Shown in pieces: positions 1-37,451 of a stretch of DNA of 37,451 nucleotides. Where the stretch lies: positions 1 to 37,451 of the forward strand of contig CAJAXU010000276.1 of the NCBI GenBank assembly GCA_903948045.1. The letters run 5' to 3'. Both the position numbers and the translations under genes were made by a program. The stretch's first letter is position 1, and every line of letters starts with the position of its first letter. The DNA is from an uncultured beta proteobacterium. GTDB taxonomy: Bacteria; Pseudomonadota; Gammaproteobacteria; Burkholderiales; Burkholderiaceae_C. The notes below the pieces were generated by a model. That model was not told the origin of the DNA. It did not search any database and was given only the letters and a program-made list of their open reading frames with translations.

Positions 1-123
1 ATCACTGTGACACAGTCCGCTCACGCGGGTACGCACCAACACTTCATTGCGCTTGGGCTTCTCGATCTCCACGCTCTCGATGGTCATCGGCTGACCTGGG
101 CCATGAAAAACAGCGGCTTTCAA
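1..123 (-). CDS. Zn-dependent alcohol dehydrogenase, N-terminal fragment (runs off the window)
   Basis: Reverse-strand translation from a TTG start: (M)KAAVFHGPGQPMTIESVEIEKPKRNEVLVRTRVSGLCHSD, the typical MDR/Zn-ADH N-terminus with the GxCHSD zinc ligand region. Confidence 0.8.
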   Translation of the reverse strand, partial: MKAAVFHGPGQPMTIESVEIEKPKRNEVLVRTRVSGLCHSD

Positions 124-137
124 TTCAATTTCTCCTG

Positions 138-1301
138 CTAGACAGTGTGTGTTTTTGGGTGGGCTGAGCCAACTTGGGTGGCCCAAACACGTTCAAGCAG
201 CATCTCGGTGGAGCCGTCCTCCAGCGTGGCCACCTGGGCACCGGCCAAATGGCGGCTCAAAGGGTAGTCGGCGCTCAAGCCGGCGGCACCGAGCGCATGC
301 AACAAATTGGCAATGTGCTTGACCGCCATGCGGGTGGCAAATATTTTGGCCTGCGCGGCCAGGGCGTCCATGGGCGCTTGAGCGTCCGCTGCGGCACAGG
401 CCTGTTCGATCAGCAACTGCGCCGCCTCGACATCAACCATGGCATCGGCGAGCACCCAACGCCAGCCCTGGTGTTCCTGCAAGGCGCGGCCAAACGTGTG
501 GCGCTGCTCGCCATAGGCGCGGGCGATGCGCAAGCTGTCCACCACCATGGCCGTCGCCATGGCCGCCACATAGGTGCGCGCCATATTGATGGAACCCATG
601 GCACGCTTGAACGCCATGCCAGGCGGATGCAGCATTTCGTCGGCGGGCACCTCATAGCCATCGAGCACAAAGCCGCCGGTACCCAATGACGCAACTGTCT
701 CGGTACGGCCGCGCTCGGTGCGATGAAAGCCCGGGCGTGACGCATCCACGACGAAAGCGGCAATACCCTTGGCACCGCTGCCTGGCTGAGTTTGCGCATA
801 CACCACCATCACCTGGGCCACCTGAGCATTGATGATCCAGGCCTTTTCCCCCTGCAATCGCCAACCCGCGCCATGGGGCGTGGCTTGCATCTGAATGGCG
901 CCAAAATCCGACCCCGCACCCGGCTCGGTCAGGCAGGTGCAACCCATTCGCTGCCCGGCCAGCAAATCGCCCAGCCAGCGCTGCGAGACCGCCGCTGGCA
1001 ACCAATTGGCCAGCGTGGAGGCGACGCCCTGTGTGTTGATCAAGGACAAGGCAAAACCAAAGTCTGCCTCGGCCAGGATCGCAGCCATGCGGCACTTCAC
1101 GCTGAACGGCAAGCCCAACCCGCCTTGCTCAACAGGCACTTGAATACCCAGCAGATTCATACGCGCCGCTTGTTGCACCCCGTCCAGTCCCATCACCCGG
1201 TCGCGCTGCCACTGTGCCGCATGTGGGCGCACCCACTCTTGTGCCAATTGCCGGGTCTGTTGCAGAACCTCTTGCGCGCGAGTTTGGGTAGCAGGGTTCA
1301 T
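138..1301 (-). CDS. Acyl-CoA dehydrogenase
   Basis: ACAD motifs CLTEPGAGSDFGAIQ, WIINAQVAQ, YGEQRHTFGRALQEHQ, EDGSTEMLLERV. Start chosen at MNPATQ (1301), overlapping the upstream ligase stop. Confidence 0.88.
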   Translation of the reverse strand: MNPATQTRAQEVLQQTRQLAQEWVRPHAAQWQRDRVMGLDGVQQAARMNLLGIQVPVEQGGLGLPFSVKCRMAAILAEADFGFALSLINTQGVASTLANWLPAAVSQRWLGDLLAGQRMGCTCLTEPGAGSDFGAIQMQATPHGAGWRLQGEKAWIINAQVAQVMVVYAQTQPGSGAKGIAAFVVDASRPGFHRTERGRTETVASLGTGGFVLDGYEVPADEMLHPPGMAFKRAMGSINMARTYVAAMATAMVVDSLRIARAYGEQRHTFGRALQEHQGWRWVLADAMVDVEAAQLLIEQACAAADAQAPMDALAAQAKIFATRMAVKHIANLLHALGAAGLSADYPLSRHLAGAQVATLEDGSTEMLLERVWATQVGSAHPKTHTV

Positions 1302-3037
1302 GTCGGCGCTCCTGATTGAAGCCATTGGTTGAGGATTTTCTTATCCACTTTCCCCACCGCAGTGGCTGGCAGCTGCCTGACCAGCACCAGCTGAGGCACC
1401 TTGTAGGTGGAGAGCCGTTGACGGCACCAGTCTGCGAGCGCCTGCGCGCGCTCCAGATCGACGCTGCCGTCTTTCAGCTGCACATAAGCCACCGGGACCT
1501 CACCCTTGTTCGCATCGGCACGTGCCACAACACCACTGGCCAGCACTTCAGCATGCTGGCCCAACACGGTTTCAATTTCCATGGGAAAGACACTCATCCC
1601 ACTGACTTTGATCATTTCTTTGCGACGGCCGAGGTAATGCACAAAACCATGCGCGTCAACGACGCCGCTGTCCCCGGTACGAAACCAGCCCTGATGAAAG
1701 GCCTGCGCTGTGGCCTGCGGCTGGCCCCAGTAGCCTTTGAAAATGGAGGGGCTACGCACACAGAGTTCACCCGCCTCACCCGGTGGCAAGGGCTGGCAGG
1801 TGTCGAAGTCGCGCGCCATGATGGCGGTGCCTGCAACCGGAAGACCAATGAACACCGGGGTTGACTTGAGGTCAAGATCATCCTCCTGCAAGCCACGCGT
1901 GAAGGTGTCTGAGGTGTGGGTCTCTGTCAGGCCCCATGCGGATTCGACCAGGCAGGCACCCTGCAGTCGCCGCCAACGCTGACGGTCATCCAGGCTGAGT
2001 TTCTTCATGAAGGAGACCACCCGTGGATGACGCAAGCAGCTGATATCCAACGCGCTGAAAAGGGGATGCGCCATCAAGTCGTGCGCTGAGTCGACAGTCA
2101 TCACCATCGAAGTCACCCGGTACCTGGCGATGGACTGCAGCACTTCTTGGGCGTCCCAGCGTGACAGCAGCACCAGCGTCTTGCCCATGAACACCGGGAA
2201 AATCACACCCGCGTTTTCACCAGCAATCCACGACTGTAGAAAAAAGCTCAACATCACCGTGTCGGGCTCGTTCGCCACCGCCACACCACAGGTGGACGCT
2301 GCGGTGTAAATCATGTCGCGCTGGGTGTGAATGCATCCCTTGGGCAGTCCGGTGGTGCCGCCGGTGTAGTTGAGGGCAGCGATGGCATCGAGATCACGTA
2401 GGCGGGGGAACGCCCCTTGCACCGTGGCGCCACACATCAGGTCACGAAGAGACTGAACACAAGGGCTTGTTGCGTCTGCACCGACACGCTGACGCTGGTC
2501 GGGCGAAGGGCCCTGCCGCAGCCACAGCACGTCAGCCTCTGAGGTAACCCAGGTGCGGCGCATGACCACCGTCGCGGCCAGGTCCGCCAGGTGGGGCAGC
2601 AAACTGTCCCAGGTGAACATCCAGCTTGCACCGGCGTCTGTCAGTTCATGCGTCAGCTCAAATGATTTGGACAACGGGCTGACCGGCACATGCACCGCCC
2701 CCAATTTCAGCAAGGCATAAAAAACCAGCAAAAATTGGGTGCAGTTGGGCAGGAAAACGGCTACCCGGTCTCCGACTTGAACGCCTTGCTCTTGCAGCGC
2801 CCAGGCCAAGGCATCGCTGCGCTCATGCAACTGCGCATAGGTCAAGGGCGTGTCTTTAAACAGAACAGCCACCTGGTTGGGCGTGTATTGGGCCCAATGC
2901 GCGAGGTAATCGGTCAAGGGCAGCTGTCCCAAGGGATACACCGGCTCGCGCGGAAAGCCTGCGGGCCAATTCTGGGCCCACAGGGTTTGCAACTGTTGGA
3001 GCAGGGTGGCGTCGTCGGACAAATCGTTCGGCGTCAA
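1298..3037 (-). CDS. AMP-forming acyl-CoA ligase/synthetase (ANL superfamily)
   Basis: Motifs LNYTGGTTGLPKGC, SAWGLTETH, GWFRTGDSGVVDAHGFVHYLGRRKEMIKVSGMSVFPMEIE, KVDKKIL. Confidence 0.9.
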   Translation of the reverse strand: MTPNDLSDDATLLQQLQTLWAQNWPAGFPREPVYPLGQLPLTDYLAHWAQYTPNQVAVLFKDTPLTYAQLHERSDALAWALQEQGVQVGDRVAVFLPNCTQFLLVFYALLKLGAVHVPVSPLSKSFELTHELTDAGASWMFTWDSLLPHLADLAATVVMRRTWVTSEADVLWLRQGPSPDQRQRVGADATSPCVQSLRDLMCGATVQGAFPRLRDLDAIAALNYTGGTTGLPKGCIHTQRDMIYTAASTCGVAVANEPDTVMLSFFLQSWIAGENAGVIFPVFMGKTLVLLSRWDAQEVLQSIARYRVTSMVMTVDSAHDLMAHPLFSALDISCLRHPRVVSFMKKLSLDDRQRWRRLQGACLVESAWGLTETHTSDTFTRGLQEDDLDLKSTPVFIGLPVAGTAIMARDFDTCQPLPPGEAGELCVRSPSIFKGYWGQPQATAQAFHQGWFRTGDSGVVDAHGFVHYLGRRKEMIKVSGMSVFPMEIETVLGQHAEVLASGVVARADANKGEVPVAYVQLKDGSVDLERAQALADWCRQRLSTYKVPQLVLVRQLPATAVGKVDKKILNQWLQSGAPT

Positions 3038-3067: not shown

Positions 3068-4042
3068 TCAGCGCAAGCCGAGTTTTTTAACAATCACCAT
3101 CTCGGTGGCGACATCGCGGGCGATTTGTTCGGCAAACTCTTTGGGGCTTTCGCTCATGCTGATGATCGAACCGGTGCGCTTGGTTTCTTCGATCAGTGCC
3201 GTAGAGGTGGAGACCGTCATCAGTGCTTTGAACACCCGCGCAATGACATCATCGGGCGTTCCGGTTGGCATGGCAAAGCCACCCCAGGCGCCAAATGAAT
3301 AGCCTGGTGCTACGGTATCGCTGATCGTCGGCACCTCTGGAATAGGTTGCACTGATTTATTGGTCGTCACCGCCAAGGCTCGTAACTGCCCGCCTTTGAG
3401 ATGAGGCACCGCGGTACCAAGTACCATGATGCTGAAATCAATCTGTCCGCCCAAAATAGCATTGGCAGATTCGACCGCACCTTTGTAGGGGATGTGCAAG
3501 GCTTTGAAAGCCGGCAGTTTTTCTTCCAGGTACTCTACCGCCATGTGAGCGGGCGAACCAATACCCGCGGAACCATAGGTCAATTTGCCGGGACTGGCTT
3601 TGGCCGCCGCCACCAAATCTGCCATGGTCTTGTAGGGCGACTTTGAATTGACGACACAGACGTAGGGCGAATTGCTCATGCGGCTGATCAATTTGAATTC
3701 CGTCAGCAAATTAAATGACGGGTCCATCGCCTGCACAGTGACATGGCCTGAGGTGATGTAGGCCAGGGCGTGGATCTCATTAGGGTTTTGTGAAACCGCC
3801 CGGGCGCCGATCAAGGCTGCGGCCCCGGGTTTGTTGTCAATGTTAAACGGTTGCGAATAAATGTTGCCTAACTCTCTGGCCACGACGCGGGCAAACAAGT
3901 CAGGCGAGCCGCCCGCAGGATACGGGACCACCACTTTCACCGGGCGGGTCGGCCATGCCGTTTGTGCCCACAATGAACCGGGCAAGGCCGAGGCAACTGC
4001 CAAACCGCCCACCAGATGACGCCTAGAGATAAAACCGCTCAT
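3068..4042 (-). CDS. Tripartite tricarboxylate transporter substrate-binding protein (Bug family)
   Basis: Signal peptide, then WPTRPVKVVVPYPAGGSPDLFARVVARELG...NKPGAAALIGARAV...GSAGIGSPAHMAVE; ~324 aa. Confidence 0.9.
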   Translation of the reverse strand: MSGFISRRHLVGGLAVASALPGSLWAQTAWPTRPVKVVVPYPAGGSPDLFARVVARELGNIYSQPFNIDNKPGAAALIGARAVSQNPNEIHALAYITSGHVTVQAMDPSFNLLTEFKLISRMSNSPYVCVVNSKSPYKTMADLVAAAKASPGKLTYGSAGIGSPAHMAVEYLEEKLPAFKALHIPYKGAVESANAILGGQIDFSIMVLGTAVPHLKGGQLRALAVTTNKSVQPIPEVPTISDTVAPGYSFGAWGGFAMPTGTPDDVIARVFKALMTVSTSTALIEETKRTGSIISMSESPKEFAEQIARDVATEMVIVKKLGLR

Positions 4043-4074: not shown

Positions 4075-6378
4075 TCAATCCCATTGCGCCATGGCCTCAG
4101 GCCGATTCGCAAAACTGTCTGGCGCTTGCGGACCGGGGATGAGGCTGACACGTTCAATCTGCCCGCCGTACCGGTACACGCCACGCCCTTCACAATCGGC
4201 ACTGACTTTTCGCCGGCGGTCCAAGCCCACGTCAAAGCCTTCGCCTACCAGCCTTAAGAAAGTGGGCGTCATGTTCAGGGTTTCTGGCGCCATGACGCCG
4301 TTGAGAACCAACTGTCCCACCCCTTCCCTTTGACCCCGGGCACTGTGCTCCAGGCGCAGATGCTGGGCCCCGGGGCTCAACCGCAGACGGCACTGCCGCT
4401 CATCACCACGCGTCCCGACAAACGATACGACCACATCCCCCGACTGAACAAAAACGCAGAGACCGCCCATGTTGTCGCCAATGGAAAATATCACGCCCTC
4501 AAATCCTGCTTGCCAGCTGAAGTGTGCTTCCAGGCAGTAATCCCGATCCGCCATTGACGGCGCAAAGTTTTGCAGGGGAATCGTCTCAACCCCGGGATAA
4601 AAATGCAAGGGCGCAGAAAACTTCTTTTCCAGAAAAGGGGGCATCGCCAGCGTTTTTCGCAAATCGCGGTTGTCCAGCGGATAGACCTGGTTGCTTTGCG
4701 CATCAAGCTCAAATTCTGCGATCAGCTGCTGCAGGATATCGGGGTGGCGTGCCGCCAAGTTATCGCACTCTGTCGGATCGACTTCAAGATTGAATAACAG
4801 CCAGTTGCTCAAGTCAATGGGCTTGCTCATGGGTTGCAGGGAGACAATTTTCCAGGGGAAAAGAATCATGCCCCGATTGCCCTCGAGTTCAAAATGCTGG
4901 CGCGTGCGTTGGGCCGGCGTGTGTGCATTCTTCAGCACGTCTAAATAGCTGCAGCCGTCCAAGCCACGCGTCGGGTGCCCATTGAAGCTCAACGGATATT
5001 TCGCACCGATCATTTCCAACACCGTGGGCAGGGTATCTGTGACATGAACCCACTGGGTCCGCACCGCGCCCGCATCTTTGACGCTCTTTGGGTGGCTCAG
5101 GATCAAGGGTACCCGAATGCCGCCGTTCATCGGGGTGCGCTTGTAAAAGCGAAACGGTGTATTCGAGCAGTTGGCCCAGCCGACCGGATAGGCCACAAAG
5201 GTGTCGGAGCCGCCCACCACACCCTGCTCAAATGCTCGCAGCGCTTTTTGCGCCATGTCCGCATCGGTTGCGCGAGCCATCCTTTTTTCCATTGTGTTGA
5301 CCGTTCCCTCCGGCCCACCGATTGAATTGGCCCCGTTATCGGATGTGAGAACAATCAAGGTGTTGTCATAAACCCCCAAGGCCTTGAGCTCGGCCACCAG
5401 ACGGCCCACCTCCTGATCAACCAGCTCAACCATCGCGGCGTAGACCTGCATGTAATGCGCCATCAGCGGCCGCATCGCCTCAGGCACATCGTCCCAACGC
5501 GGTACACCTGGGTTGGCTTGCGACAAGCGCCAGTCCGGCCCGATCAAGCCCATCGCGCGCTGGCGGGCAAAACGAAGTTCGCGCTGACGGTCCCACCCCT
5601 GGTCGTAAACACCGGCGTAACGGGCAATGGCCTCTGGCGGCGCTTGCAAAGGCACGTGGGGGGCGTTGTGCGCGAGATACAGAAAAAAAGGTTTGTCCGG
5701 CGTGCTGCTTTGATGACCGCGCAGGTATTGAATCGATCGGTCGGTCCAATCCCGCGTCGCGTAGTAGCCGGGTGCGTAGGCATCAATGCTCAAAAATTCA
5801 TTGCCGTCGATCAGGTGGTGCGGCGAGAAGAAATGGGTCTCTGAACCCAAAAAGCCATAGAACCTGTCAAAACCGCGTTGCAGTGGCCAAGCCTGGCGGT
5901 CACTGCCTGAACCGATGTGATAGTCAGCCGTGTTATGCCACTTGCCAACCCCATAGGTGGAGTAACCCAGGCCGCGCAAGAGCTCGGGCATGGTGGGTGC
6001 ATCGGCCGACATCTCACCGGCCTGGTAACCTGGATAGCCCGGATTGTTGTGGGTCAACCAACCACATCCAACCGCATGCGGATTTTTCCCGGTGAGCAAG
6101 GCCGCACGCGCGGGTGTACACATCGGGACCGTGGTGTACCCGGTGAAACGCAAGCCGGCACCGGCCAAGGCGTCAATGTGGGGCGTAGCAATCTCGCCAC
6201 CAAAACAGCCAAAATCAGAAAAGCCCAAATCATCCAGCAAGATGACCACCACATTGGGGGCGCCCTGCGGTGCCCGCGTCGCGTCCCGCCACCAGGGCTT
6301 GGAATCTTTCAGGGTTTTACCAATCGTGCCCTGATAACCCTCAGCGGGGTTGGCGGGCGACTCCCACGAATACGTCAT
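4075..6378 (-). CDS. Cys-type (type I) sulfatase, arylsulfatase-like, with a C-terminal beta-rich extension; no signal peptide seen
   Basis: PNVVVILLDDLGFSDFGCFGGEIATPHIDALAG, active site MCTPARAALLTGKNPH (C-x-P-x-R), GVGKWHN, TSDNGAN. Start at MTYSWESPAN (6378) overlaps the GMC stop as ATGA. Confidence 0.88.
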   Translation of the reverse strand: MTYSWESPANPAEGYQGTIGKTLKDSKPWWRDATRAPQGAPNVVVILLDDLGFSDFGCFGGEIATPHIDALAGAGLRFTGYTTVPMCTPARAALLTGKNPHAVGCGWLTHNNPGYPGYQAGEMSADAPTMPELLRGLGYSTYGVGKWHNTADYHIGSGSDRQAWPLQRGFDRFYGFLGSETHFFSPHHLIDGNEFLSIDAYAPGYYATRDWTDRSIQYLRGHQSSTPDKPFFLYLAHNAPHVPLQAPPEAIARYAGVYDQGWDRQRELRFARQRAMGLIGPDWRLSQANPGVPRWDDVPEAMRPLMAHYMQVYAAMVELVDQEVGRLVAELKALGVYDNTLIVLTSDNGANSIGGPEGTVNTMEKRMARATDADMAQKALRAFEQGVVGGSDTFVAYPVGWANCSNTPFRFYKRTPMNGGIRVPLILSHPKSVKDAGAVRTQWVHVTDTLPTVLEMIGAKYPLSFNGHPTRGLDGCSYLDVLKNAHTPAQRTRQHFELEGNRGMILFPWKIVSLQPMSKPIDLSNWLLFNLEVDPTECDNLAARHPDILQQLIAEFELDAQSNQVYPLDNRDLRKTLAMPPFLEKKFSAPLHFYPGVETIPLQNFAPSMADRDYCLEAHFSWQAGFEGVIFSIGDNMGGLCVFVQSGDVVVSFVGTRGDERQCRLRLSPGAQHLRLEHSARGQREGVGQLVLNGVMAPETLNMTPTFLRLVGEGFDVGLDRRRKVSADCEGRGVYRYGGQIERVSLIPGPQAPDSFANRPEAMAQWD

Positions 6379-8024
6379 GCGTTGGCCTTGAAGGGATGTT
6401 GAAGAATGCAATCGGCACCTTTTTCGCCGATGGCAATCGAGGCAGCGTTGGTGTTCGACGAGGGCATGGTCGGCATAATCGAGGAGTCAATCACCCGCAG
6501 AGCCTGTACCCCTTTGACACGCAACTGCGGGTCGACCACGGCCATGGCATCGGTGCCCATCTTGCAGGTCCCTATGGGGTGCCAAGAGGTTTGTCCACAT
6601 TGGCGGATGTAATCGAGCACCGCCGCATCGTTTTGCACATCCAGCCCGGGGCGGGTTTCGCGCCGGATCAAGCCCTGCAGCGCGGGTTGGCTCGAGACCT
6701 GCCGGGCCAGGCGAAAAGCACGCACCATGTCTTCCTGATCTTGGGGGTGATTCATATAGCGCGGATCCATCAACGGCGCTTCCAAGGCATCTGGGGAATG
6801 CGCATGCACATGGCCACGCGAACGTGGGCGCAACTGGAAGAACCCGATCGCAAAACCCGGAAAAGGATCAAGTCCGGCACCGGGGCTGCGTGTATAACGG
6901 CTGTTGGCGCTCAGGTGCGTCATTTGGATCTTGACGCTGGCGCGCGGCTCGTCGGGATGTGCCGGAACCAGCGCGTGGACCGTCGCCGACGGCGTGGCCA
7001 TCATTCCCCGGCGCGTCAGCAAATATTTGGCGCCCATCCAGGCTTGGCGAATCGGGTTAGAGACAATTTCGTTCAGGCTAATGCGCTGAGTGCATTCAAA
7101 AGTGATGCGCCCCTGCAAGTGATCACACAGGTTTTCGCCCACACCGGGCACATCAGCTTTGACCTCTACGCCCAGCTCACGCAAGCGATTGGCCTGGCCA
7201 ACGCCAGAGAGTTCCAGCAACTGCGGCGACACAATAGGCCCGGCACTGAGGATGACTTCGCGGCGGGCCAGCACTTGCAGCGCTTGGCCATCGTGCAGGT
7301 AGCGAATCCCCACCGCCCGCGTGCCCTCCCACATCACCGATGTGGCCTGAGCCTGCACTTGCAGGGTGAGCTGAGGCGGGGTAAACCGGTCCAGATACGC
7401 TCGCGCCGTGCTGCTGCGCTGCCCCCGATGGGTGGACAACTGCAAATAGCCCACACCCTCGTACTGGGCACCGTTGTAGTCAGGGTTGGCGGCAATGCCG
7501 GCCTGCAAACAGCCCGCATGAAACGCATCTCCCAGGGGCTGCGGGTCATCTGCCAACGACGTGACCTGGATCGGGCCCTGCCGGCCACGGTAGGCGGCGT
7601 CTCCCATGGGCGCGGATTCGAGTTTCTTGAAGTAAGGCAACAAATCCTGATAGCCCCAGCCGGTGCATCCCAGGTCACGCCAATGGTTGTATTCACGTGG
7701 GTCGCCGCGCACATAAATCATGCCGTTGATCGAACTCGAGCCCCCAGGCATCTTGCCGCGTGGCCAATACACCTTCTGGTTGTTGACCTGCACTTGCGGC
7801 TCGGTAAAGAACGGCCACACATACTTGGGGTTTTGCAGCAGTCGGCCAATGCCCAATGGGGTTCGCACCCAAAAGTCATTGTGATGCGCGCCGCCGGCCT
7901 CGAGCAGCAACACGCTGGTGTCAGGCTGTTGCGCCAACCGGTGTGCCAGCGCCGCACCCGAAGAGCCGGCCCCGACCACCACATAGTCGTAGGTGGGCGT
8001 ACTCAAGCCGTGGTCTCCAGCCAC
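6375..8024 (-). CDS. GMC-family (choline dehydrogenase-like) FAD oxidoreductase, copy 1
   Basis: YDYVVVGAGSSGAALAHRLA, GGSSSINGMIYVRGDPREYNHW, TSWHPIGTCKMG, DSSIMPTMPSSNTNAASIAIGEKGAD. A TTG start at 8006 (TTGA overlap with the upstream stop) is also possible. Confidence 0.92.
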   Translation of the reverse strand: MAGDHGLSTPTYDYVVVGAGSSGAALAHRLAQQPDTSVLLLEAGGAHHNDFWVRTPLGIGRLLQNPKYVWPFFTEPQVQVNNQKVYWPRGKMPGGSSSINGMIYVRGDPREYNHWRDLGCTGWGYQDLLPYFKKLESAPMGDAAYRGRQGPIQVTSLADDPQPLGDAFHAGCLQAGIAANPDYNGAQYEGVGYLQLSTHRGQRSSTARAYLDRFTPPQLTLQVQAQATSVMWEGTRAVGIRYLHDGQALQVLARREVILSAGPIVSPQLLELSGVGQANRLRELGVEVKADVPGVGENLCDHLQGRITFECTQRISLNEIVSNPIRQAWMGAKYLLTRRGMMATPSATVHALVPAHPDEPRASVKIQMTHLSANSRYTRSPGAGLDPFPGFAIGFFQLRPRSRGHVHAHSPDALEAPLMDPRYMNHPQDQEDMVRAFRLARQVSSQPALQGLIRRETRPGLDVQNDAAVLDYIRQCGQTSWHPIGTCKMGTDAMAVVDPQLRVKGVQALRVIDSSIMPTMPSSNTNAASIAIGEKGADCILQHPFKANA

Positions 8025-8632
8025 CTTTGCAACGCGGCCAGTTCCTGGCCCATCCGTGAAAATTGCAAGTCAGGCATCTCTGGCAATTCAAAACCTGGGC
8101 CGGTGCGCGGTGGCACCTGCTCCACCATCAGCTCGACAAAGGTCGGGCCAGGCTGGCTTAGCAATTCAGGAAAACGCCTGGCCCAGGTCTCGGCGCTGTC
8201 GATCACTTCGGTATACGCGTACCCCGCTTCTTTCGCCAAGCCCGCGAAAGACAAGGTGGGTTGCAAGGTCGCCAGGTTGCCCAGCCCTGAGAACTGGGTG
8301 CCGTTGCGAATCACCACATGCAAAAAGTGCGCCGGTCGCGCCGTGGCCACTGTGACCAGCCCGCCGAGCTCAAGCAGCAGACTCGCATCACCATCGACCA
8401 CCACCACGGCCCGCTCCGGCATGGCCAGTGCCAAACCCAATCCCAGACCGGCAGCGCCACCCATCAGGGGCACCGAGCTGATCCGTCCAGGCGGTCGCCG
8501 GCTGGCATCCCCGCCCGCCGCTTCCAGTTCAATACGGTCAAAGGCGAACATGGCGCCCATGGTGGCCACCAGCAAAGAGTTGGCAGGGCGCTGCTGAGCG
8601 ACCACAGCACAGGCTTGAATTAAGTTCATCAT
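8003..8632 (-). CDS. TPP-dependent enzyme, beta/C-terminal subunit (sulfopyruvate/phosphonopyruvate decarboxylase ComE-like), copy 1
   Basis: SSVPLMGGAAGLGLGLALAMPERAVVVVDGDASLLLELGGLVTVATARPAHFLHVVIRNG: GDG...N ThDP-binding motif in a ~209 aa stand-alone subunit. Confidence 0.78.
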   Translation of the reverse strand: MMNLIQACAVVAQQRPANSLLVATMGAMFAFDRIELEAAGGDASRRPPGRISSVPLMGGAAGLGLGLALAMPERAVVVVDGDASLLLELGGLVTVATARPAHFLHVVIRNGTQFSGLGNLATLQPTLSFAGLAKEAGYAYTEVIDSAETWARRFPELLSQPGPTFVELMVEQVPPRTGPGFELPEMPDLQFSRMGQELAALQRWLETTA

Positions 8633-8637
8633 GTGCT

Positions 8638-9177
8638 TTATCTCCAGGCCATGGGGGCGGACACCAGCAACACCACGGCGGTGCGCTGGGCATGGGCCAA
8701 GGCGTAGGCCTCGTCCATTCGGACCAAATCGGCCTCTGAATCAAGGCTTAAGAAAGGCACGTTGATGGCGGTTAGCAGCGGCTCCATGATGCGCACCATG
8801 GTCCGGCGTGACACCGTACTGGGCTGGCCCAAGTTGGCATACTCGCGCCCAAACTGGCCGACCATGAACACCAGGGGCATTTGGGCATCCAGGCAGACCG
8901 CGCGCAACGTGTTCATGCAGTTGTACAAACCTTGGTTTTGCATCATCAGCAAAGGCCGCTTGCCACCCAAGGTCAGCCCTGCCGCCACGGTGATCACCTG
9001 GTTTTCGCTGCAACAGCCGACCAGCTTGACTCCTGGCAGCCCCGCTTCAAGCCGCTGGTGCAAGGCCAGTTGCACCCAGTCGGGAACCGTGACCACATGG
9101 TCCACCCGGTTTCGCGCCAGCGCCTCAACACAGGCGGATGCCGGGACGGAGTAATCTTGTAGCTGGACACTGGACAT
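8638..9177 (-). CDS. TPP-dependent enzyme, alpha/N-terminal PYR-domain subunit (ComD-like), copy 1
   Basis: ~179 aa PYR-domain-like: DHVVTVPDWVQLALHQRLEAG...CCSENQVITVAAGLTLGGKRPLLMMQNQGLYNCMNTLRAV; next to the beta subunit. Confidence 0.75.
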   Translation of the reverse strand: MSSVQLQDYSVPASACVEALARNRVDHVVTVPDWVQLALHQRLEAGLPGVKLVGCCSENQVITVAAGLTLGGKRPLLMMQNQGLYNCMNTLRAVCLDAQMPLVFMVGQFGREYANLGQPSTVSRRTMVRIMEPLLTAINVPFLSLDSEADLVRMDEAYALAHAQRTAVVLLVSAPMAWR

Positions 9178-11002: not shown

Positions 11003-11764
11003 ATGACATTTGCCCAACTCAGTACCGAAGGCCGCGTCAGCGTGGTCACGCTCAACCGGCCCGAGCGCCTGAACGCCATCAGCGGTGACCTGCTGGTGGA
11101 CCTGCACGCCGCACTGGTGCAGGCCCAGGCCGACCCAGCCACCGGCGCCATTGTGCTCACCGGCGCCGGGCGCGCCTTTTGTGCCGGCGACGACCTGAAA
11201 GAGTTTGACCAACAGTCCGAAAGTCCAGCCGCCATTGCGCTGCACTGCGAGCGCATCCAACAGATCACCCGCGACATCATGTTCGGGCCGAAACTGGTGG
11301 TGGGCGCAGTGCACGGCTACGCGGTAGGCGGAGGCTTTGAGTGGATGCTCAACTGCGACCTGGTGGTAGCCGCAGACAGCCTGGTGTGCTTTTTTCCCGA
11401 AATGGCGCTGGGGCATTTTGTGACGGGCGGCGTCACCCACCTGCTGCCGCAGACCCTGGGCCATCAACGCACGATGGAGCTGATCGTGCTGGGCGAGCGC
11501 CACGGCGCACAGGCGCTCAAAGACCTGGGCCTGATCAACCGCGTGGTGGCGTTGCCCGACATGCTGCCCACCGCGCTGACGCTGGCCGCCCAGGTAGCCA
11601 GCCGCTCGGCGGGGGCCACCCGCCGCCTCAAGCGCCTACTCACCAGCCAGTTGCAGACCCAGCTGACCGGGGCGCTAGCGCTGGAGCGCGAGGCCGCTAT
11701 GGCCTGCTTCGCCGACCCCGACACGGCGCAACGGATTGCCGACTTTGCCGCTGGACGGCTATGA
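11003..11764 (+). CDS. Enoyl-CoA hydratase/isomerase (crotonase) family
   Basis: MTFAQLSTEGRVSVVTLNRPERLNAIS...ITGAGRAFCAGDDLKEF-type oxyanion-hole segments, GYAVGGGFEWMLNCDLVVAADS. Confidence 0.88.
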   Translation: MTFAQLSTEGRVSVVTLNRPERLNAISGDLLVDLHAALVQAQADPATGAIVLTGAGRAFCAGDDLKEFDQQSESPAAIALHCERIQQITRDIMFGPKLVVGAVHGYAVGGGFEWMLNCDLVVAADSLVCFFPEMALGHFVTGGVTHLLPQTLGHQRTMELIVLGERHGAQALKDLGLINRVVALPDMLPTALTLAAQVASRSAGATRRLKRLLTSQLQTQLTGALALEREAAMACFADPDTAQRIADFAAGRL

Positions 11765-13057
11765 GCTGGTGGTCACTGCGCGCAGTGCCTGCACCAGCCG
11801 GTCCAGATCGGCCTCAGCGGTGTAGATGGCCGGCGACACCCGAATGCACTGGCCCTTGGCCACACCGCCACGGCGCACGGTGAAGATGCCAAACTGATCG
11901 CGCAGCTGCGCCACGATGGCGTTGTTGTCAGCGGCCGTGCCCTTGCCGGCCAGGCGGAACGAGGTGATGCCGGCGGCCATGCCTGGCTCGTCGGGCGTCA
12001 GGATCTCCAGCCCCTTGAAGCCACGCACCCGGCTGACCCAGTAATCGCGCAGGTAACGCAGGCGCAGCGCCTTGGCGCGCGGGCCGATCTGCTGATGCAA
12101 GGCCAGCGCGCCGGGCAGGGCCAGCACTGAGGCAAAGTTGTAGGTGCCAGTGTGCACGCGCGAGCGGATGTCGGTAGGGGCCCAGTCCTCGTCGCCCATG
12201 GCCCGGTCAATGTCGGCCAGGCGCGACTTGGCCACATACATGAAGCCAACACCCAGCGGCGCGCCAATCCACTTATGCAGGTTGAAACCGATGAAATCCA
12301 CCCCAAGGTCCTGCACCTTGAAGTCGATCTGGCCCCAGGAGTGGGCGGCGTCCAGCACCACATCGACACCCCGGGCGCGCGCCAGGGCGGCAATCTCGGC
12401 CACCGGCATGACCAGGCCGGTGCGGTGGCTGACGTGCGTGACCAGAAGCAGCGCCGCCTTGGGGTGGTCAGCCAGCACCTTTTGGTAGGTCTGGAGCACC
12501 GCGCCCCGCGTGGCCGGCTCGGGGATGCTGAACTTGACGACGTTGACGCCACGGCGCTCTTTAAGCCAGTTCATGGCGTACTGCATCGAGTCGTAATCCA
12601 GGTCCGAATACAGCACGGTGTCGCCGGGCTGCAGCTTGTTGTAGCCGCCGATCAACAGCTGCAGCGCCTCGGTGGCGCCACGCGTCAGAGCCACCTCTTC
12701 GGGCGCGGCACCCACCGCAGCAACCACCGCCTGGCGGGCCGCCTCACCATCGCGGCCGAATTGCGTGCGAGCATAGAACGAGCTCTCGCGGTTGACCATG
12801 TCGGTCTTGGCCAAGTAGTCCAAGCGCACCGGCTCGGCCATGATGCCCCAGTAGCCGTTCTCCAGGTTGACGATGCTGGGCGAGACGGCGTAAAGCTTGC
12901 GCACTGCGTCCCAGTAAGTGGTGTCGGTCGCCACGCCTGCGCTGTTGAGCGCAGGCAGGGGCAGGGCAGGGGACTGGGCGCGGGCACTTGGCGCGCTGAC
13001 AGCCGCTGTGGCAGCAGCCAGGCCGAGCACGAAGCCGCGGCGGTTGGTTTCGATCAT
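11759..13057 (-). CDS. Class V aminotransferase-fold PLP enzyme (isopenicillin-N epimerase-like) with Tat signal peptide
   Basis: N-terminus MIETNRRGFVLGLAAATAAVSAPSARA (twin-arginine); VVLDAAHSWGQIDFKVQDLGVDFIGFNLHKWIGAPLGVGF with the PLP lysine. Confidence 0.85.
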   Translation of the reverse strand: MIETNRRGFVLGLAAATAAVSAPSARAQSPALPLPALNSAGVATDTTYWDAVRKLYAVSPSIVNLENGYWGIMAEPVRLDYLAKTDMVNRESSFYARTQFGRDGEAARQAVVAAVGAAPEEVALTRGATEALQLLIGGYNKLQPGDTVLYSDLDYDSMQYAMNWLKERRGVNVVKFSIPEPATRGAVLQTYQKVLADHPKAALLLVTHVSHRTGLVMPVAEIAALARARGVDVVLDAAHSWGQIDFKVQDLGVDFIGFNLHKWIGAPLGVGFMYVAKSRLADIDRAMGDEDWAPTDIRSRVHTGTYNFASVLALPGALALHQQIGPRAKALRLRYLRDYWVSRVRGFKGLEILTPDEPGMAAGITSFRLAGKGTAADNNAIVAQLRDQFGIFTVRRGGVAKGQCIRVSPAIYTAEADLDRLVQALRAVTTSS

Positions 13058-24780: not shown

Positions 24781-25578
24781 TTGCAAAAGTTACTGGACGG
24801 AAAAGTAGCCCTCATCACAGGCGCTGGCTCGGGCATTGGCCGGGCAACAGCCATCCGCTTTGCCGCGGAGGGCGCCAAAGTCGTGCTGGGTGATATGAGT
24901 GCCAGCGTGTTTGAGACAGCCGCGCTACTCGGGCCTGTGGCGTCAGCCTGCCAAATGGACGCAGGCAAGGAAGAGGATGTGGCCAGACTGGTCGAGCTTG
25001 CGGTGAGCAGGCACGGCCAGATTGACATTGCTTTTGCCAATGCCGGCATATCGGGCGGGATGGCGGGCATCTTCGACAACACTGTCGAAAACTTCACTGA
25101 GGTCCTTCGCGTCAATTTGATTGGTCCCTGGCTGATGGTCAAGCATGCAGGCAAGGTCATGGCGCAGGCCGGGCGTGGTGGCTCTATTATCTTGACGGCG
25201 AGTGTGGCGGGCCTGCGTTCAGGCGCCGGCGGCCCCGCATATTCCGCCTCCAAAGCTGGCGTCATCAACTTGGCCATGGTCGCCGCACAGCAACTGAGCG
25301 ACACCAATGTCCGCGTCAACGCTCTTTGTCCGGGTCTGACTGAGACCGGCATGACCAAGCCCACCTTCGACTACGCCAAACAAAAGGACGTGATGCACAA
25401 GGTCGGCCGTCTCAACCCGCTGCGCCGCGGTGCACGTGCTGAAGAACTTGCCAATGTGGCAGTTTTCCTTGCCAGCGATCTTGCCAGTTATGTCAACGGG
25501 CAAGCCATCGCGGCCGATGGTGGCCTGTCAAGCTCCCATCCGGTCACCCGGCAGTTAACCGGTCAGACGGCTGTTTAA
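24781..25578 (+). CDS. Short-chain dehydrogenase/reductase
   Basis: TTG start; [58 protein letters not shown]. Confidence 0.9.
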
Positions 25579-25598
25579 GTGCATCGCTGATACACATT

Positions 25599-26405
25599 GT
25601 GATGAATTCAAAAACACCCCCTCCTGACGACGATTCGGCGCAAGCCAAAGACCCGCAGTTTGCCTACACCTTGGCCAAGGGCCTCGAAGTGTTGCGAGCC
25701 TTTGATGTCTCCACGCCCTATTTGGGCAATCGTGAGCTGGCCAAGCGAACTGGCCTGACCAGACCCACAGTCGCACGCCTCACCCGGACGCTGGCCCTGT
25801 TGGGGTACTTAAGCTATGACAAGGCCGATGCGCGCTACCGCCTGGCAGCTTCTTGCCTGTCCTTTGGCTATCCTCTGCTGAGTCAACTCAACGTCCGGCA
25901 TCTGGCGCGCGCACCCATGCAGGAACTGGCCGATTACGCGCGGGGTGCGGTCTCGATCGCCATGCGCAGCGGCCTGGAGATGATCATCGTTGAGAGTTGC
26001 GTGGATCAGTCTGCGCCCAATGGTCGCCCCGACATCGGCGCCACCCGGCCGATCGAGAGTACCGCGCTAGGCTACGCCTATTACAGTGCCGCTGGCGCCA
26101 CCGAAAAAGCAGAGCTGGAGCTGCAGTTACAGCAAGCTCAAGGGCCCAACTGGCCTGCGCTCAAAGCTCAATTGACACTGGCCCAGTCTTTTTTTAGCCA
26201 GAACGGCTATTGTTTCCGGGTTGCCGCACCGAATAGCTTGGAGGTTGTCGCCGTGCCCTTGCGCTCCAATTTCGAGGGTGAAGTTCTAGTGATCAACTGT
26301 GCCGTAGCCTCCTTCAATCTGGAGCCGAACGGGCTGATTGAGCAAATCGCGCCGCGCCTCAAACACCTGGTGGCTCTCGTCGAGAGCGCTGCCGGACTTC
26401 GCTAA
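25599..26405 (+). CDS. IclR-family transcriptional regulator
   Basis: LAKGLEVLRAFDVSTPYLGNRELAKRTGLTRPTVARLTRTLALLGYL wHTH followed by an IclR effector domain. Confidence 0.9.
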   Translation: MMNSKTPPPDDDSAQAKDPQFAYTLAKGLEVLRAFDVSTPYLGNRELAKRTGLTRPTVARLTRTLALLGYLSYDKADARYRLAASCLSFGYPLLSQLNVRHLARAPMQELADYARGAVSIAMRSGLEMIIVESCVDQSAPNGRPDIGATRPIESTALGYAYYSAAGATEKAELELQLQQAQGPNWPALKAQLTLAQSFFSQNGYCFRVAAPNSLEVVAVPLRSNFEGEVLVINCAVASFNLEPNGLIEQIAPRLKHLVALVESAAGLR

Positions 26406-26513
26406 TTCCGGCCAGCTCGGGCTTTGCCGGGACGCTACGTCTCTGCGCCTCTGTTCCAAGCCTGTTCAACCCAGCCTAGGTTAGTCGGGGTCAAGCCGCT
26501 GTCATATCGGTAT

Positions 26514-26558
26514 CATCTGTCTGAATATTGTAAATATAAGTTAATATTCAGTCAGATG
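26514..26558. promoter_or_regulatory. 16-bp-arm inverted repeat, candidate operator upstream of the nitronate monooxygenase-like gene
   Basis: CATCTGTCTGAATATT-(13 nt)-AATATTCAGTCAGATG, one mismatch between arms, about 70 bp before the 26628 ATG. Confidence 0.6.
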
Positions 26559-26627
26559 CTAACTACTGCTGCCGGTGATCGGGGTTGGCAGGCGGCACAC
26601 GGTTCCGCCGAGATCGAAGGAGTGCAA

Positions 26628-27728: not shown

Positions 27729-27761
27729 GTCCCCACCCTCATCCACATCACCGCGGCCAGC

Positions 27762-29894: not shown

Positions 29895-29910
29895 CAGGCC
29901 GGCTCAGCCC

Positions 29911-31536
29911 TTAGCCTTGGTCAGACAAAATCATGTCTGCGGCCTTCTCGCCGATGGCGATAGAGGGAGCATTGGTATTCGACGTTGGCATGGTCGGCAT
30001 GACCGATGAGTCCACCACACGCAAACCATCCAGGCCATGTACCCGCAAACGATCATCCACCACGGCCATGGCATCGCGGCCCATGCGGCAGGTGCCGATG
30101 GGATGCCAAGAGGTTTGTCCTGAGCGCTTGAGGTAGTCAAGCAGTGCCTCGTCACTGTCGGTTTCCGGGCCCGGGCGCGTCTCACGCACGATTAAAGCTT
30201 GCAGTGGCCCACTGCTGGCGATTCGGCGCGCCAACCGGGCAGCCCGCAGCAGGGCACGGCAATCGCCTTCCGCGGCAAGGTAGTTTGGGTCGATGATGGG
30301 CGCCTCGGACACATCGGTGCTGCGTGAATGCACACTACCGCGAGACTCTGGGCGAAGCTGAAAAAAACCGATACCAAAGCCCGGGTAGAGGTCCATCCCA
30401 GCCGCAGGGTTATTGGCATAACGATCAGCCCCGGTTTTATGGGTGATCTGGATTTTTGCGTCGGGCTGCAGATCGTTCGGGTCGGTGCGGGCCAGAGCGT
30501 GAACGGTGGCGAGTGGCGCCGCCATGAAGCCCCGGCGCGTCAGCAGGTAATGAGCACCCATCAAAGCCTGGCGCAGCGGGCTGGCCAAAATCTCATTCAG
30601 CGTGATGGCCTTGGTGCATTCATAGGTCAACCGGGACTGGAAGTGATCGATCAGGTTCTCACCAACCCCAGGCAGCGCATGCACGACCGGCAACCCCAGT
30701 CGCTGCAGCAGCGCGGGCTGACCCACCCCCGACAACTCCAGCAATTGCGGCGACTGAATGGGCCCCGCCGACAGGATCACTTCGGCCCTGATGCGAACGT
30801 GGCAGATTTGACCCTTATGGCGGTATTCGACGCCGACTGCGCGTCGGCCCTCAAAGACGATGCGCGAGGCCACGGCTTGAGTCCGCATTTCCAACCCGGT
30901 TGGCGCATCGGGGCCCAGATAGCCCTTGGCAGTGCTGCAGCGCCTCCCTTGCTGGATAGAAACTTGCAGATAGCCCACACCCTCGTAGCATCCGCCGTTG
31001 TAGTCAGGGGTGGACGGTATACCTGCTGCATTGCAAGCGGCCAAAAAAGCGTCTGGCAACTCACTAGGGCGATCAGCCAAGGCCGTCAGCCGGATCGGAC
31101 CGCTACGCCCCCGTTGTGCCGGATCGCCAAAGTTGGTTGACTCGATGCGTTTGAAATAGGGCAACAAATCATCCCAGCCCCAACCGCGATTGCCGAGAGC
31201 ACGCCAGCGGTCATATTCTGCCGGGTCACCACGCACCCACAAGTTGCCGTTGACCGAGCTTGAGCCGCCTGGCACGCGACCGCGCGGCCAATAGACCTGC
31301 TGCCCTCCCAGGTGGGCCTGTTTTTCGGTGTGAAAAGGCCAAACGTAACGCGGGTCCATCAACAGCTTGCCCACGCCTAAGGGTACTTCGACCCAAAAAT
31401 CCCGGTGGCGGGGCTCGCCCGCTTCAAGCAACAAGACACGAGTACCTGGTCGATCCGCCAACCTGCGTGCCAGCGCAGCCCCAGACGAACCAGCGCCAAT
31501 GACCACATAGTCAACGGTCTGTGTGGGTGCGATCAT
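29911..31536 (-). CDS. GMC-family FAD oxidoreductase, copy 2
   Basis: VDYVVIGAGSSGAALARRLADRPG, GGSSSVNGNLWVRGDPAEYDRW, TSWHPIGTCRMGRDAMAVVD, VVDSSVMPTMPTSNTNAPSIAIGEKAAD. Confidence 0.92.
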   Translation of the reverse strand: MIAPTQTVDYVVIGAGSSGAALARRLADRPGTRVLLLEAGEPRHRDFWVEVPLGVGKLLMDPRYVWPFHTEKQAHLGGQQVYWPRGRVPGGSSSVNGNLWVRGDPAEYDRWRALGNRGWGWDDLLPYFKRIESTNFGDPAQRGRSGPIRLTALADRPSELPDAFLAACNAAGIPSTPDYNGGCYEGVGYLQVSIQQGRRCSTAKGYLGPDAPTGLEMRTQAVASRIVFEGRRAVGVEYRHKGQICHVRIRAEVILSAGPIQSPQLLELSGVGQPALLQRLGLPVVHALPGVGENLIDHFQSRLTYECTKAITLNEILASPLRQALMGAHYLLTRRGFMAAPLATVHALARTDPNDLQPDAKIQITHKTGADRYANNPAAGMDLYPGFGIGFFQLRPESRGSVHSRSTDVSEAPIIDPNYLAAEGDCRALLRAARLARRIASSGPLQALIVRETRPGPETDSDEALLDYLKRSGQTSWHPIGTCRMGRDAMAVVDDRLRVHGLDGLRVVDSSVMPTMPTSNTNAPSIAIGEKAADMILSDQG

Positions 31537-31548
31537 CGAGCAAGAACC

Positions 31549-32166
31549 TCAGGCGGTCGATGTGGAGAGCCAGGCACTGAGCGCTTCTGCTTCCTGCCCC
31601 ATGCGGCTGAACTGACGATCAGGCACTTCCGATTGCGGCATTGCTGGCCCGAAACGAGCCGGCGCAGGTGTGATGGTCAGTTCAACAAAACCTGGGCCAA
31701 CCATAGCCATAAGGCTGGGCAACTGCGCGATCCAGTCATGCAGCGAGTCAATCCGCCGGGCATGCTTGTAACCGGCCGCCAAGGCCAGGGCAGGAAAGTC
31801 GACGCATTGGTTGCCAGGCACCGTCAAATTGGAGCCCCCTGTGAATTGCGTGCCATTGTTAGCCAGTATATGGAGGTACTTGGCCGGCGCCTGCGTACTG
31901 ACGGTTACAAGCCCCCCAAGTGCCATCAACAGGCTTGCGTCGCCGTCAACCACCAATACCTGTCGGTCAGGCCTGGCCAAGGCCAGGCCCAGTCCCAGAC
32001 CTGCAGCGCCGCCCATCAAGGGTACCGAGCCCATGCGACCCTCATGCATTTGCAGCTGGTCGAAAGCAAACATCGAGCTCATGGTCGCGACCACAATGGC
32101 CTCACCCCCGGCGGCCGCACGCGCCGCCACAATCGCGCCGCAAGCCTCTGTGATCGTCATCGGCAT
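31549..32166 (-). CDS. TPP-dependent enzyme, beta/C-terminal subunit (ComE-like), copy 2
   Basis: Start MPMTITEACGAIVAARAA; GSVPLMGGAAGLGLGLALARPDRQVLVVDGDASLLMALGGLVTVSTQAPAKYLHILANNG. Confidence 0.78.
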   Translation of the reverse strand: MPMTITEACGAIVAARAAAGGEAIVVATMSSMFAFDQLQMHEGRMGSVPLMGGAAGLGLGLALARPDRQVLVVDGDASLLMALGGLVTVSTQAPAKYLHILANNGTQFTGGSNLTVPGNQCVDFPALALAAGYKHARRIDSLHDWIAQLPSLMAMVGPGFVELTITPAPARFGPAMPQSEVPDRQFSRMGQEAEALSAWLSTSTA

Positions 32167-32185
32167 GGGTTTCTCCGGTACCGGT

Positions 32186-32716
32186 TCATGTCCAAGCCAA
32201 GGGTGCCCCCACCAGCAGTGCTGTGGCGGTTCGCCTCGAATGCGCATGCTCAAAGGCGGTGCGTACCTGGTCAAGATCCGACGCCTGCTCCAACCGAAAA
32301 TATTCGACGCCAAGCGCGGCCAGTACGGGCTCCAACAGCCTGACCATATTGCGGTTTGAGTGCGCTGGATCATGCCCAAAGTTGTCGAATTCACGACCGA
32401 ACTGCCCAACCATGAACACCAAAGGGATCTGCGCATCGAGCGCCACCGCGCGGATGGTATTAATGCAGGCGTACAGGCCCTGATTCTGGATCACGATCAC
32501 CGGTCGCTGGCCCCCGATGGTCAGGCCTGCGGCCACAGTGACAGCCTGATCCTCGGCGCAGCAAGGGACCAGCGTGAGCCCGGGCTCCCCAGACTCCAGG
32601 CGCACGTGTAGGGCTAATTGCACCCAGTCCGGAACGGTGACCACATGGTCGCAGCCGACCTCACGGAGCCTTTGCAGCACGGCAGAAGCGGGTATGTGCG
32701 GGTCCATGGTGGTCAT
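32186..32716 (-). CDS. TPP-dependent enzyme, alpha/N-terminal subunit (ComD-like), copy 2
   Basis: DHVVTVPDWVQLALHVRLESGEPGLTLVPCCAEDQAVTVAAGLTIGGQRPVIVIQNQGLYACINTIRAV; paralogue of 8638-9177. Confidence 0.75.
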   Translation of the reverse strand: MTTMDPHIPASAVLQRLREVGCDHVVTVPDWVQLALHVRLESGEPGLTLVPCCAEDQAVTVAAGLTIGGQRPVIVIQNQGLYACINTIRAVALDAQIPLVFMVGQFGREFDNFGHDPAHSNRNMVRLLEPVLAALGVEYFRLEQASDLDQVRTAFEHAHSRRTATALLVGAPLAWT

Positions 32717-32746
32717 CGCTGCGGAGGCGCCGTGTATTGGCTGCGG

Positions 32747-33742
32747 CTACTCTGCCTTGATATTGCCTTTGCGGATCACTTCAGCCCATGTCGCGACATC
32801 GGTACGTATCGTCTCAGCAAATTGGTCCGCGGTACGCGGCTGCATGTTCGCCAAACCCAGCGACTCCCAGCGCTTGGCGTATTCGGGAGACTGCATGGCG
32901 CGGTTGACTGCGGCGTTAAGGCGCTCGACGATGGCGCGCGGTGTCCCGGCCGGAGCGACCAGGCAGTACCAGGTCGCGATCTGGAAATTAACGCCTTGCT
33001 CCGTTAAGGTTGGCACGTCCGGCAGCGAAGGCTCTCGATTCGGACCACTGACCGCCAGCGCCCGAAGCTTCCCGGCCTTGATAAGGGACAAGGCTGCGGC
33101 AGGAGCCGAAAAGCCAGCTTGCAAACGCCCGCCCATGATCTCGACATTGGACTCCGCAGCAGACTTATAAGGCACGTGCTGCATCTTTAGCCCCGTGCTC
33201 TGCAGAACGATTTCCATACTTAAATGGCCCGCAGAGCCGATGCCCCAGGAACCATAGGACCCCGACTCCGCGGGCCGCCTGCGCATCTCGGCAAGGAACT
33301 CCTGAACATTTTTCGCAGGGAAGTCGGCAGACACCACCAGGAAATTGCCACCCGAACCAATTTGGGCGACGGCGGCGAAATCCTTGGCGCCGTCGTAACC
33401 CGCATTGGGGTACAGACTTTGGTTGACCACCTGAGCCGCCGCATAGCTGAACAGCAACGTATAGCCGTCAGCCGGCGCCTTCGCGACCTCCCGGCTCCCA
33501 ATCATGCCATTGGCACCTGGCTTGGCTTCAACCACAAACGGTTGCTTGAAAAGGCTGGACAGCGACTCGGCAAAAACCCGAGCAACAAGATCGGTCCCAC
33601 TACCGATCCCGCTGGGAACGATCAGTTTGACCGGTTTGGTGGGCCAGCTGTCCTGGGCCATCGCTGGCAACTGCGAAGCCAGTGTGCAAATGACGGCCAA
33701 ACGAGCAAGAAAGGCGGTGGTGCGACGGCGACATAACATCAT
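32747..33742 (-). CDS. Tripartite tricarboxylate transporter substrate-binding protein (Bug family)
   Basis: Signal peptide; WPTKPVKLIVPSGIGSGTDLVARVFAESL...EAKPGANGMIGSREVAKAPADGYTLL. Confidence 0.9.
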   Translation of the reverse strand: MMLCRRRTTAFLARLAVICTLASQLPAMAQDSWPTKPVKLIVPSGIGSGTDLVARVFAESLSSLFKQPFVVEAKPGANGMIGSREVAKAPADGYTLLFSYAAAQVVNQSLYPNAGYDGAKDFAAVAQIGSGGNFLVVSADFPAKNVQEFLAEMRRRPAESGSYGSWGIGSAGHLSMEIVLQSTGLKMQHVPYKSAAESNVEIMGGRLQAGFSAPAAALSLIKAGKLRALAVSGPNREPSLPDVPTLTEQGVNFQIATWYCLVAPAGTPRAIVERLNAAVNRAMQSPEYAKRWESLGLANMQPRTADQFAETIRTDVATWAEVIRKGNIKAE

Positions 33743-33957
33743 GTTTTCCCCTTAAAGACGATCGGATTACCCCAATTCAAGCAGACAAAGTGGAAAACAA
33801 CATCCAAGCGCCTGCCAGCGATGCCGCGGTCCCCACGCGGTGCATCATGGCACAGCATCCTGCTACCGTCAAATTATTGTTTGTATTGTCAAATATTCAG
33901 AACATACAGGCGATTTCTTTATACTGGTGCTCCCGCAGCAACTTAAGAAGCCTTGTC

Positions 33958-37297: not shown

Positions 37298-37298
37298 G

Positions 37299-37451
37299 TC
37301 AGTTGAAGCGGACGTAGTCAAAGTCCACCGGCTGGCGGTTGATGCCCATCACCGGTGGCGCGATCCAGTTGGCAAACTTGCCGGGCTCGACCACGCGGCC
37401 CATCAGGCTGGCCACATAGGCACGGTCGTCGCCGCTGGGCAGCCAATCGAG
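37299..37451 (-). CDS. boxB: Benzoyl-CoA 2,3-epoxidase oxygenase component BoxB, C-terminal fragment (runs off the window)
   Basis: Reverse-strand reading ends ...[47 protein letters not shown]; one nt upstream of the boxA ATG. Confidence 0.85.

Follow-up and report, generated by a model that had tools for sequence, protein, structure and literature searches.

A split ThDP enzyme, GMC flavoenzyme and cytosolic sulfatase operon in a freshwater Burkholderiales bacterium, proposed to act in organic sulfate ester catabolism

Using the 37,451-nucleotide stretch of DNA analyzed here, which we refer to as the window, we identified an operon on the minus strand that contains, in order, the genes for the two subunits of a split ThDP enzyme (TPPa and TPPb), a GMC flavoenzyme, a sulfatase, a Bug/TctC solute-binding protein, an acyl-CoA ligase, an acyl-CoA dehydrogenase (ACAD) and the start of a Zn-dependent alcohol dehydrogenase (Zn-ADH) (Table 1). 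We propose that this operon serves the catabolism of an organic sulfate ester, covering uptake, desulfation, alcohol oxidation, ThDP-dependent C-C cleavage, CoA activation and beta-oxidation, a reading that we hold to be evenly balanced between right and wrong, and in which all reactions, their order and the class of substrate are ones that we infer. The TPPa-TPPb-GMC part of the operon is found a second time in the window, in a cluster that the preliminary description of this DNA did not report.

Table 1. Features of the operon and of the second, paralogous cluster, in window positions.
Feature	Position	Strand	Basis
TPPa, PYR (pyrimidine-binding) subunit of split ThDP enzyme, 179 aa	8638..9177	-	PF02776
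TPPb, PP (pyrophosphate-binding) subunit, 209 aa	8003..8632	-	PF02775
GMC flavoenzyme, choline-dehydrogenase / chloramphenicol-oxidoreductase type, about 543 aa	6375..8006	-	PF00732/PF05199
Cytosolic formylglycine-type (S1) sulfatase, 767 aa	4075..6378	-	PF00884, CTPAR motif
Bug/TctC periplasmic solute-binding protein, RR-type export signal	3068..4042	-	PF03401, sequence
AMP-forming acyl-CoA ligase, 579 aa	1298..3037	-	PF00501/PF13193
Acyl-CoA dehydrogenase (ACAD), short-chain-ACAD-like	138..1325	-	PF00441, PF02770, PF02771
Zn-dependent alcohol dehydrogenase start, 41 residues, runs off window edge	about 1..123	-	identity to relative
Bug2	32747..33742	-	PF03401
TPPa2, 57% identical to TPPa1	32186..32716	-	PF02776, alignment
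TPPb2, 52-53% identical to TPPb1	31549..32163	-	sequence comparison
GMC2	29911..31536	-	PF00732/PF05199

Our analysis of the ORFs, Pfam domains and junctions recovered every gene named in the preliminary description, together with the contiguity and the ATGA overlap between the GMC and sulfatase genes that it had noted. The gap between TPPa and TPPb is 5 bases, TPPb and GMC overlap by 4 bases (TTGA), with a probable TTG start of GMC lying over the TPPb stop, and GMC and the sulfatase also overlap by 4 bases, with the sulfatase ATG lying over the GMC stop, and therefore a longer sulfatase ORF from 6411 is not a likely start. Past the sulfatase, the junctions are, in order, 32 bases, 30 bases, one overlap and one short gap, and with these small gaps and overlaps the operon looks like one single transcript, as judged from its junctions. 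The acyl-CoA ligase, which scores 762 bits against PRK06178 (cut-off 782), is absent from the corresponding place in loci L017-L019 in our neighbourhood comparison; the solved structures nearest to the ACAD are 4n5f and SCADs; and the Zn-ADH fragment shares 98% identity with the full-length gene located after the ACAD in the close relatives L017, L018, L019 and L021, with the full relative in L018 (16728-17810) containing PF08240 and PF00107. The operon showed no gene for a TctA/TctB membrane transporter. Elsewhere in the window, a PvdN-like protein with a class-V aminotransferase fold and an export signal (11759-13057) is encoded between the operon region and a PhoD-like phosphatase, with no link to the operon seen.

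The sulfatase keeps every active-site motif that we checked (LLDD, CTPAR, GKWH, TSDNG and YKRTPMNGG), and its C-x-P-x-R motif and metal/sulfate-binding residues identify it as an S1 sulfatase. No signal-peptide-like or other export sequence is visible at its N-terminus, which agrees with the cytoplasmic location proposed for it earlier. Its closest solved relatives are 7all and the Pseudomonas aeruginosa arylsulfatase 1hdh; it has the catalytic domain, the active-site motifs and the lack of a visible export signal in common with 1hdh and with S1 sulfatases, and differs from 1hdh by about 200 additional C-terminal residues, which match no Pfam family. The host genome contains 22 PF00884 matches and two FGE-family (PF03781) matches above the cut-off, so that FGE is represented at the family level. 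On another host contig (C482, locus L117, 379-14613), two sulfatases of the same long type as the one in the window flank a LacI regulator, a full-length acetolactate-synthase-like ThDP enzyme and an SDR, with further genes encoding Bug, MFS, a 2-hydroxyacid dehydrogenase, another SDR and a KDG-kinase-like (sugar-acid-type) kinase, and this is another undescribed sulfatase and ThDP cluster. ThDP chemistry is therefore encoded beside such long sulfatases at least twice in the host genome, with different ThDP architectures, and this repeated proximity gives mild support for a functional link between the two.

A search for co-occurrence of these gene families, as the preliminary description had proposed, demonstrated that the set is conserved. 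Our profile scan of genome contigs with the TPPb alignment gave 78 loci and, with each contig counted once and the window and further genome-search loci added, 82 family TPPb genes. Of these 82 loci, 77 have TPPa next to TPPb and 72 have a GMC gene in the vicinity (same strand and downstream in 62, elsewhere nearby in 10); in several of the other 10, the contig breaks off or the TPPb is an extra copy next to a module that is itself complete. The gap between TPPb and GMC has a median of -4 bases across the 62 loci. In a phylogeny built from joined TPPa-TPPb sequences with a quick method and with SH-aLRT support only, the first copy in the window falls in a clade of 37 rows (SH-aLRT 99). Among the clade members with at least 6.5 kb of downstream sequence, 19 of 24 contain an S1 sulfatase with at least 40% identity to that of the window within 8 kb, compared to 2 of 38 well-covered loci outside the clade (Fisher p = 1.6e-9, a value that is optimistic because the loci are related to one another), and the remaining 36 of these 38 contain the module without a sulfatase. 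At the host genome's own density, about 0.07 sulfatases are expected by chance per 16 kb neighbourhood. The sulfatase is on the same strand and shortly downstream in 14 of the 24 clade loci, including Limnohabitans, Ramlibacter and Hydrogenophaga records, and a Cupriavidus basilensis locus outside the clade has the same arrangement. Catalytic motifs are retained in nearly all full-length clade sulfatases. We conclude that this gene set is not a chance neighbourhood. The family itself is rare, being present in 6 of 399 sampled genomes of the order and, at a stricter threshold, in 2 of 369 sampled genomes of the class, the host genome included in both counts, and literature searches by the strain names of related loci found no physiology.

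Examination of the genes surrounding these loci showed acyl-CoA ligase, ACAD, thiolase or CoA-transferase genes beside many copies of the module. Many of the copies that do not belong to the sulfatase clade are accompanied by genes for acyl-CoA ligases, aldehyde dehydrogenases or CoA transferases, in agreement with an acid product. A TauE/SafE exporter-family gene is present in five related loci; the Limnohabitans-type and related loci L036, L037, L039, L043 and L045 contain an extra amidohydrolase, a second divergent sulfatase nearby and, in four of the five, a TauE/SafE-family exporter. Alkylsulfatase-dimerisation-domain proteins, with HYAxGS/T-like motifs and without DHxGG, are encoded beside the TPP/GMC module in L011, L028, L048, L073 and L082, several of which also carry DUF1254/DUF1214 proteins. 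Among the homologues in related loci, the type III alkylsulfatase Zn motif THxHxDHxGG is complete in L035 only, and since the DHxGG half is missing in all others we dropped the replacement of the S1 sulfatase by a type III alkylsulfatase as independent support. In a further TPPa-TPPb-GMC branch (L052, L053, L067, L070, L072 and L074), the module is linked to aconitase X, with an IclR regulator in several loci. The cis-3-hydroxyproline dehydratases (aconitase X) make an imino acid; this branch may handle an imino or 2-oxo acid and, by analogy, a decarboxylase role like that of AzcBC (discussed below) is possible there if its aconitase X makes an imino acid.

The second cluster in the window contains TPPa, TPPb, GMC and Bug genes and no sulfatase (29911-33742). 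A longer TPPb2 ORF, to 32436, is not a likely start because it overlaps TPPa2. The cluster is flanked by genes for an IclR regulator, SDRs, an NMO-family protein and an ADP-forming acyl-CoA synthetase (window 24781-34749), and it has a nearly identical copy in L069 (a Rhodoferax sp. OV413 MAG) and a copy with 78-86% identity in L065. BoxA (benzoyl-CoA 2,3-epoxidase subunit A; 36026-37321, 744 bits against a cut-off of 459) is encoded next to a thiolase, near this cluster. The presence of the second copy indicates that the repeated unit is TPPa-TPPb-GMC plus a Bug protein and, since it has no sulfatase, that TPPa-TPPb-GMC is the core module and the sulfatase an accessory of the clade containing the first copy. 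TPPa-TPPb-GMC would then be the older unit, functioning elsewhere with no sulfatase, to which one clade joined sulfatases. The sulfate-ester pathway put forward in the preliminary description fits, in its broad outline, the conserved set, with TPPa-TPPb-GMC-sulfatase-Bug repeated in other genera and the sulfatase sites intact, but the sulfatase does not belong to the ancestral core.

Because the module so often lacks a sulfatase, the ThDP step may be unrelated to sulfate, and TPPa-TPPb-GMC could serve a single class of substrate, 2-hydroxy or 2-oxo acids, with the sulfatase a separate sulfur-scavenging gene that ended up in the same operon in a sulfatase-rich host. The number of PF00884 matches in this host, the sulfatase-free second copy and the similar state of most family members outside the clade are consistent with such an arrangement, but it does not account for the 4-base overlap of GMC and sulfatase, for the recurrence of a same-strand downstream sulfatase in the clade and in C. 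basilensis, or for an occurrence so far above what density alone predicts, and we regard it as unlikely.

TPPa and TPPb are encoded by adjacent genes with PYR (PF02776) and PP (PF02775) folds, as in split ThDP enzymes. TPPa contains a catalytic-type Glu58 and a family signature, QNQG and GQFGRE, based on residues conserved over 79 rows, and TPPb contains the Mg/ThDP motif GDAS...N. Single-chain AF2 models have a pLDDT of 95.8 (TPPa) and 90.0 (TPPb). The solved folds nearest to the TPPa model are AzcBC and RhiEF; the RhiEF beta chain is nearest to the TPPb model, and benzoylformate decarboxylase is among its closest full-length folds. RhiEF is a phosphonopyruvate decarboxylase and ComDE a decarboxylase (PMC12141560). 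Both resemble the pair studied here in having two small PYR/PP chains of the same fold encoded by adjacent genes, with 9iz3/9iz4 as the best or near-best match, but RhiEF is only 21-28% identical to it, and both differ in having GDGS in place of GDAS and QNSG with [x]RG in place of QNQG with GQFGRE, and in having no linkage to GMC and sulfatase genes. The AzcBC alpha-imino acid decarboxylase (9u8q) is also a split ThDP pair, and its small chains are the best TPPa match among solved structures, but identity is about 20% and its alpha chain keeps RRG where the TPPa family has QFG.

At the family level, the best homology of the pair is to TIGR03845 (TPPa, 61.1 bits, cut-off 147.95), TIGR03846 (TPPb, 64.5 bits, cut-off 221.5) and TIGR03297 (86.5 bits, cut-off 312.5), all far under the cut-off, and sulfoacetaldehyde acetyltransferase models matched neither subunit. 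QNQG and FG are present in 79 of 79 TPPa sequences, with FG preceded by Q in all but one and the motif nearly always GQFGRE, and TPPb sequences mostly contain DGDAS together with an almost invariant QF pair. The RhiE-, AzcB- and ComD-like (L100) sequences that we saw have QNSG-like and [x]RG motifs at the same places, and the Arg-Gly motif that follows their alpha-subunit QNSG-like helix is absent from all 79 family TPPa. Clustering of the pair with a known enzyme of different function, which would have argued against the preliminary description, did not occur, the pair forming its own clade. The term ComDE-like used in that description therefore holds for architecture and distant homology; membership of the ComDE sulfopyruvate decarboxylases was rejected, since the pair is far under curated cut-offs, is without the Arg-Gly motif and forms its own clade. 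By these sequence criteria, TPPa/TPPb is a clearly delimited subfamily with a near-invariant signature. A third split TPP pair in the host, on contig C331 (L016, 1081-2210), is 38% identical over part of TPPb, has GLLGK in place of GQFGRE and an adjoining aldehyde dehydrogenase, and belongs to a separate subfamily.

In the split decarboxylases, the Arg of [x]RG would bind the anion and, because the TPPa family has FG, in almost every case as QFG, where phosphonopyruvate-type decarboxylases have this motif, the substrate of TPPa/TPPb is probably different from, and less anionic than, that of RhiE/AzcB/ComD-like enzymes. We consider it rather unlikely that TPPa/TPPb represents a new ThDP reaction class acting on a GMC-made aldehyde or ketone (e.g., by beta-elimination or alpha-hydroxycarbonyl cleavage) at the core of an undescribed sulfate-ester carbon pathway of freshwater Burkholderiales. 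We find quite unlikely an umpolung of the GMC aldehyde, in which alkoxide, hydroxide or sulfate leaves from the beta position of a Breslow intermediate to give the acid, by analogy with the expulsion of sulfite by sulfoacetaldehyde acetyltransferase, and the sulfatase exposes the alcohol for GMC; few features of the family are as constant as the coupling of TPPb to GMC, which would follow if the ThDP pair acted on what GMC makes, and the motif replacement points to a different substrate, but the nearest split relatives are decarboxylases and neither subunit matched the acetyltransferase models. It is very improbable that the pair is a true sulfopyruvate or phosphonopyruvate decarboxylase in an operon degrading a sulfonate or phosphonate, since its best homology, to the three TIGR models and RhiEF, falls far short of the cut-offs, [x]RG is missing throughout the family and the operon contains no sulfonate- or phosphonate-specific gene.

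The GMC protein contains PF00732 and PF05199 and belongs to the GMC oxidoreductase superfamily, with an E of 5e-110 against PDB 8b7s. By sequence, it resembles choline dehydrogenase and the chloramphenicol-inactivating oxidoreductase; assignment as choline dehydrogenase (BetA) was rejected, since it scores below the cut-offs of both PRK02106 (544 bits, cut-off 605) and TIGR01810 (468 bits, cut-off 732). The literature searched on chloramphenicol-type GMC enzymes and C-C cleavage contained no matching ThDP gene set.

In the sulfate-ester pathway that we favor, the Bug protein would aid uptake, the cytosolic formylglycine sulfatase would convert R-OSO3- to the alcohol, and the GMC flavoenzyme would oxidize the freed alcohol to a carbonyl compound that is the substrate of TPPa/TPPb. 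TPPa/TPPb would then cut the neighbouring C-C bond. The likeliest reaction is that a 2-oxoacid is decarboxylated to an aldehyde, because RhiEF, AzcBC and ComDE are all decarboxylases. The aldehyde would be converted to an acid via Zn-ADH or another dehydrogenase, and the acid to an acyl-CoA by the acyl-CoA ligase, for beta-oxidation through the ACAD. Known GMC enzymes usually yield aldehydes rather than 2-oxoacids, so it is uncertain which of GMC and TPPa/TPPb acts first. Choline sulfate, alkyl ether sulfates, zooplankton alkyl sulfates, chlorosulfolipids and sulfated 2-hydroxyacids were considered as substrates and are indistinguishable on these data.

The mandelate pathway consists of a hydroxyacid dehydrogenase, benzoylformate decarboxylase and an aldehyde dehydrogenase. 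Its order is the one proposed here, from hydroxy compound to 2-oxoacid, then by ThDP decarboxylation to aldehyde and acid, but its ThDP enzyme is single-chain and full-length, its dehydrogenase is of another family and it has no sulfatase. A sulfatase-GMC-aldehyde dehydrogenase-ligase operon on plasmid pP62BP1 (slf) has been proposed for alkyl sulfates (PMC3346939). This operon, itself only predicted, shares the sulfatase, the GMC alcohol oxidation and the acyl-CoA ligase, so that this logic has a precedent, but its sulfatase is a type III alkylsulfatase and it has an aldehyde dehydrogenase in place of a ThDP enzyme. In the open-access papers searched, with most subscription journals outside their coverage, neither the TPPa-TPPb-GMC-sulfatase combination nor the TPPa/TPPb subfamily is described, and the earlier statement that no pathway is known with this gene set stands to that extent. 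The single parts are known families; what is new is their combination and the subfamily with its own signature.

Organic sulfate esters make up an important share of dissolved and soil sulfur and, to our knowledge, few pathways that recover the carbon after desulfation are known and few members of the split ThDP enzymes have been characterised. With a conserved ThDP-GMC-sulfatase operon, Burkholderiales of lakes and other habitats would offer a genetic marker for a carbon-recovering pathway of this kind and enzymes on which to test it, and the split ThDP enzymes would gain a clearly delimited subfamily with its own active-site signature. The gene set of this freshwater bacterium hints at an undescribed way of eating organic sulfates.
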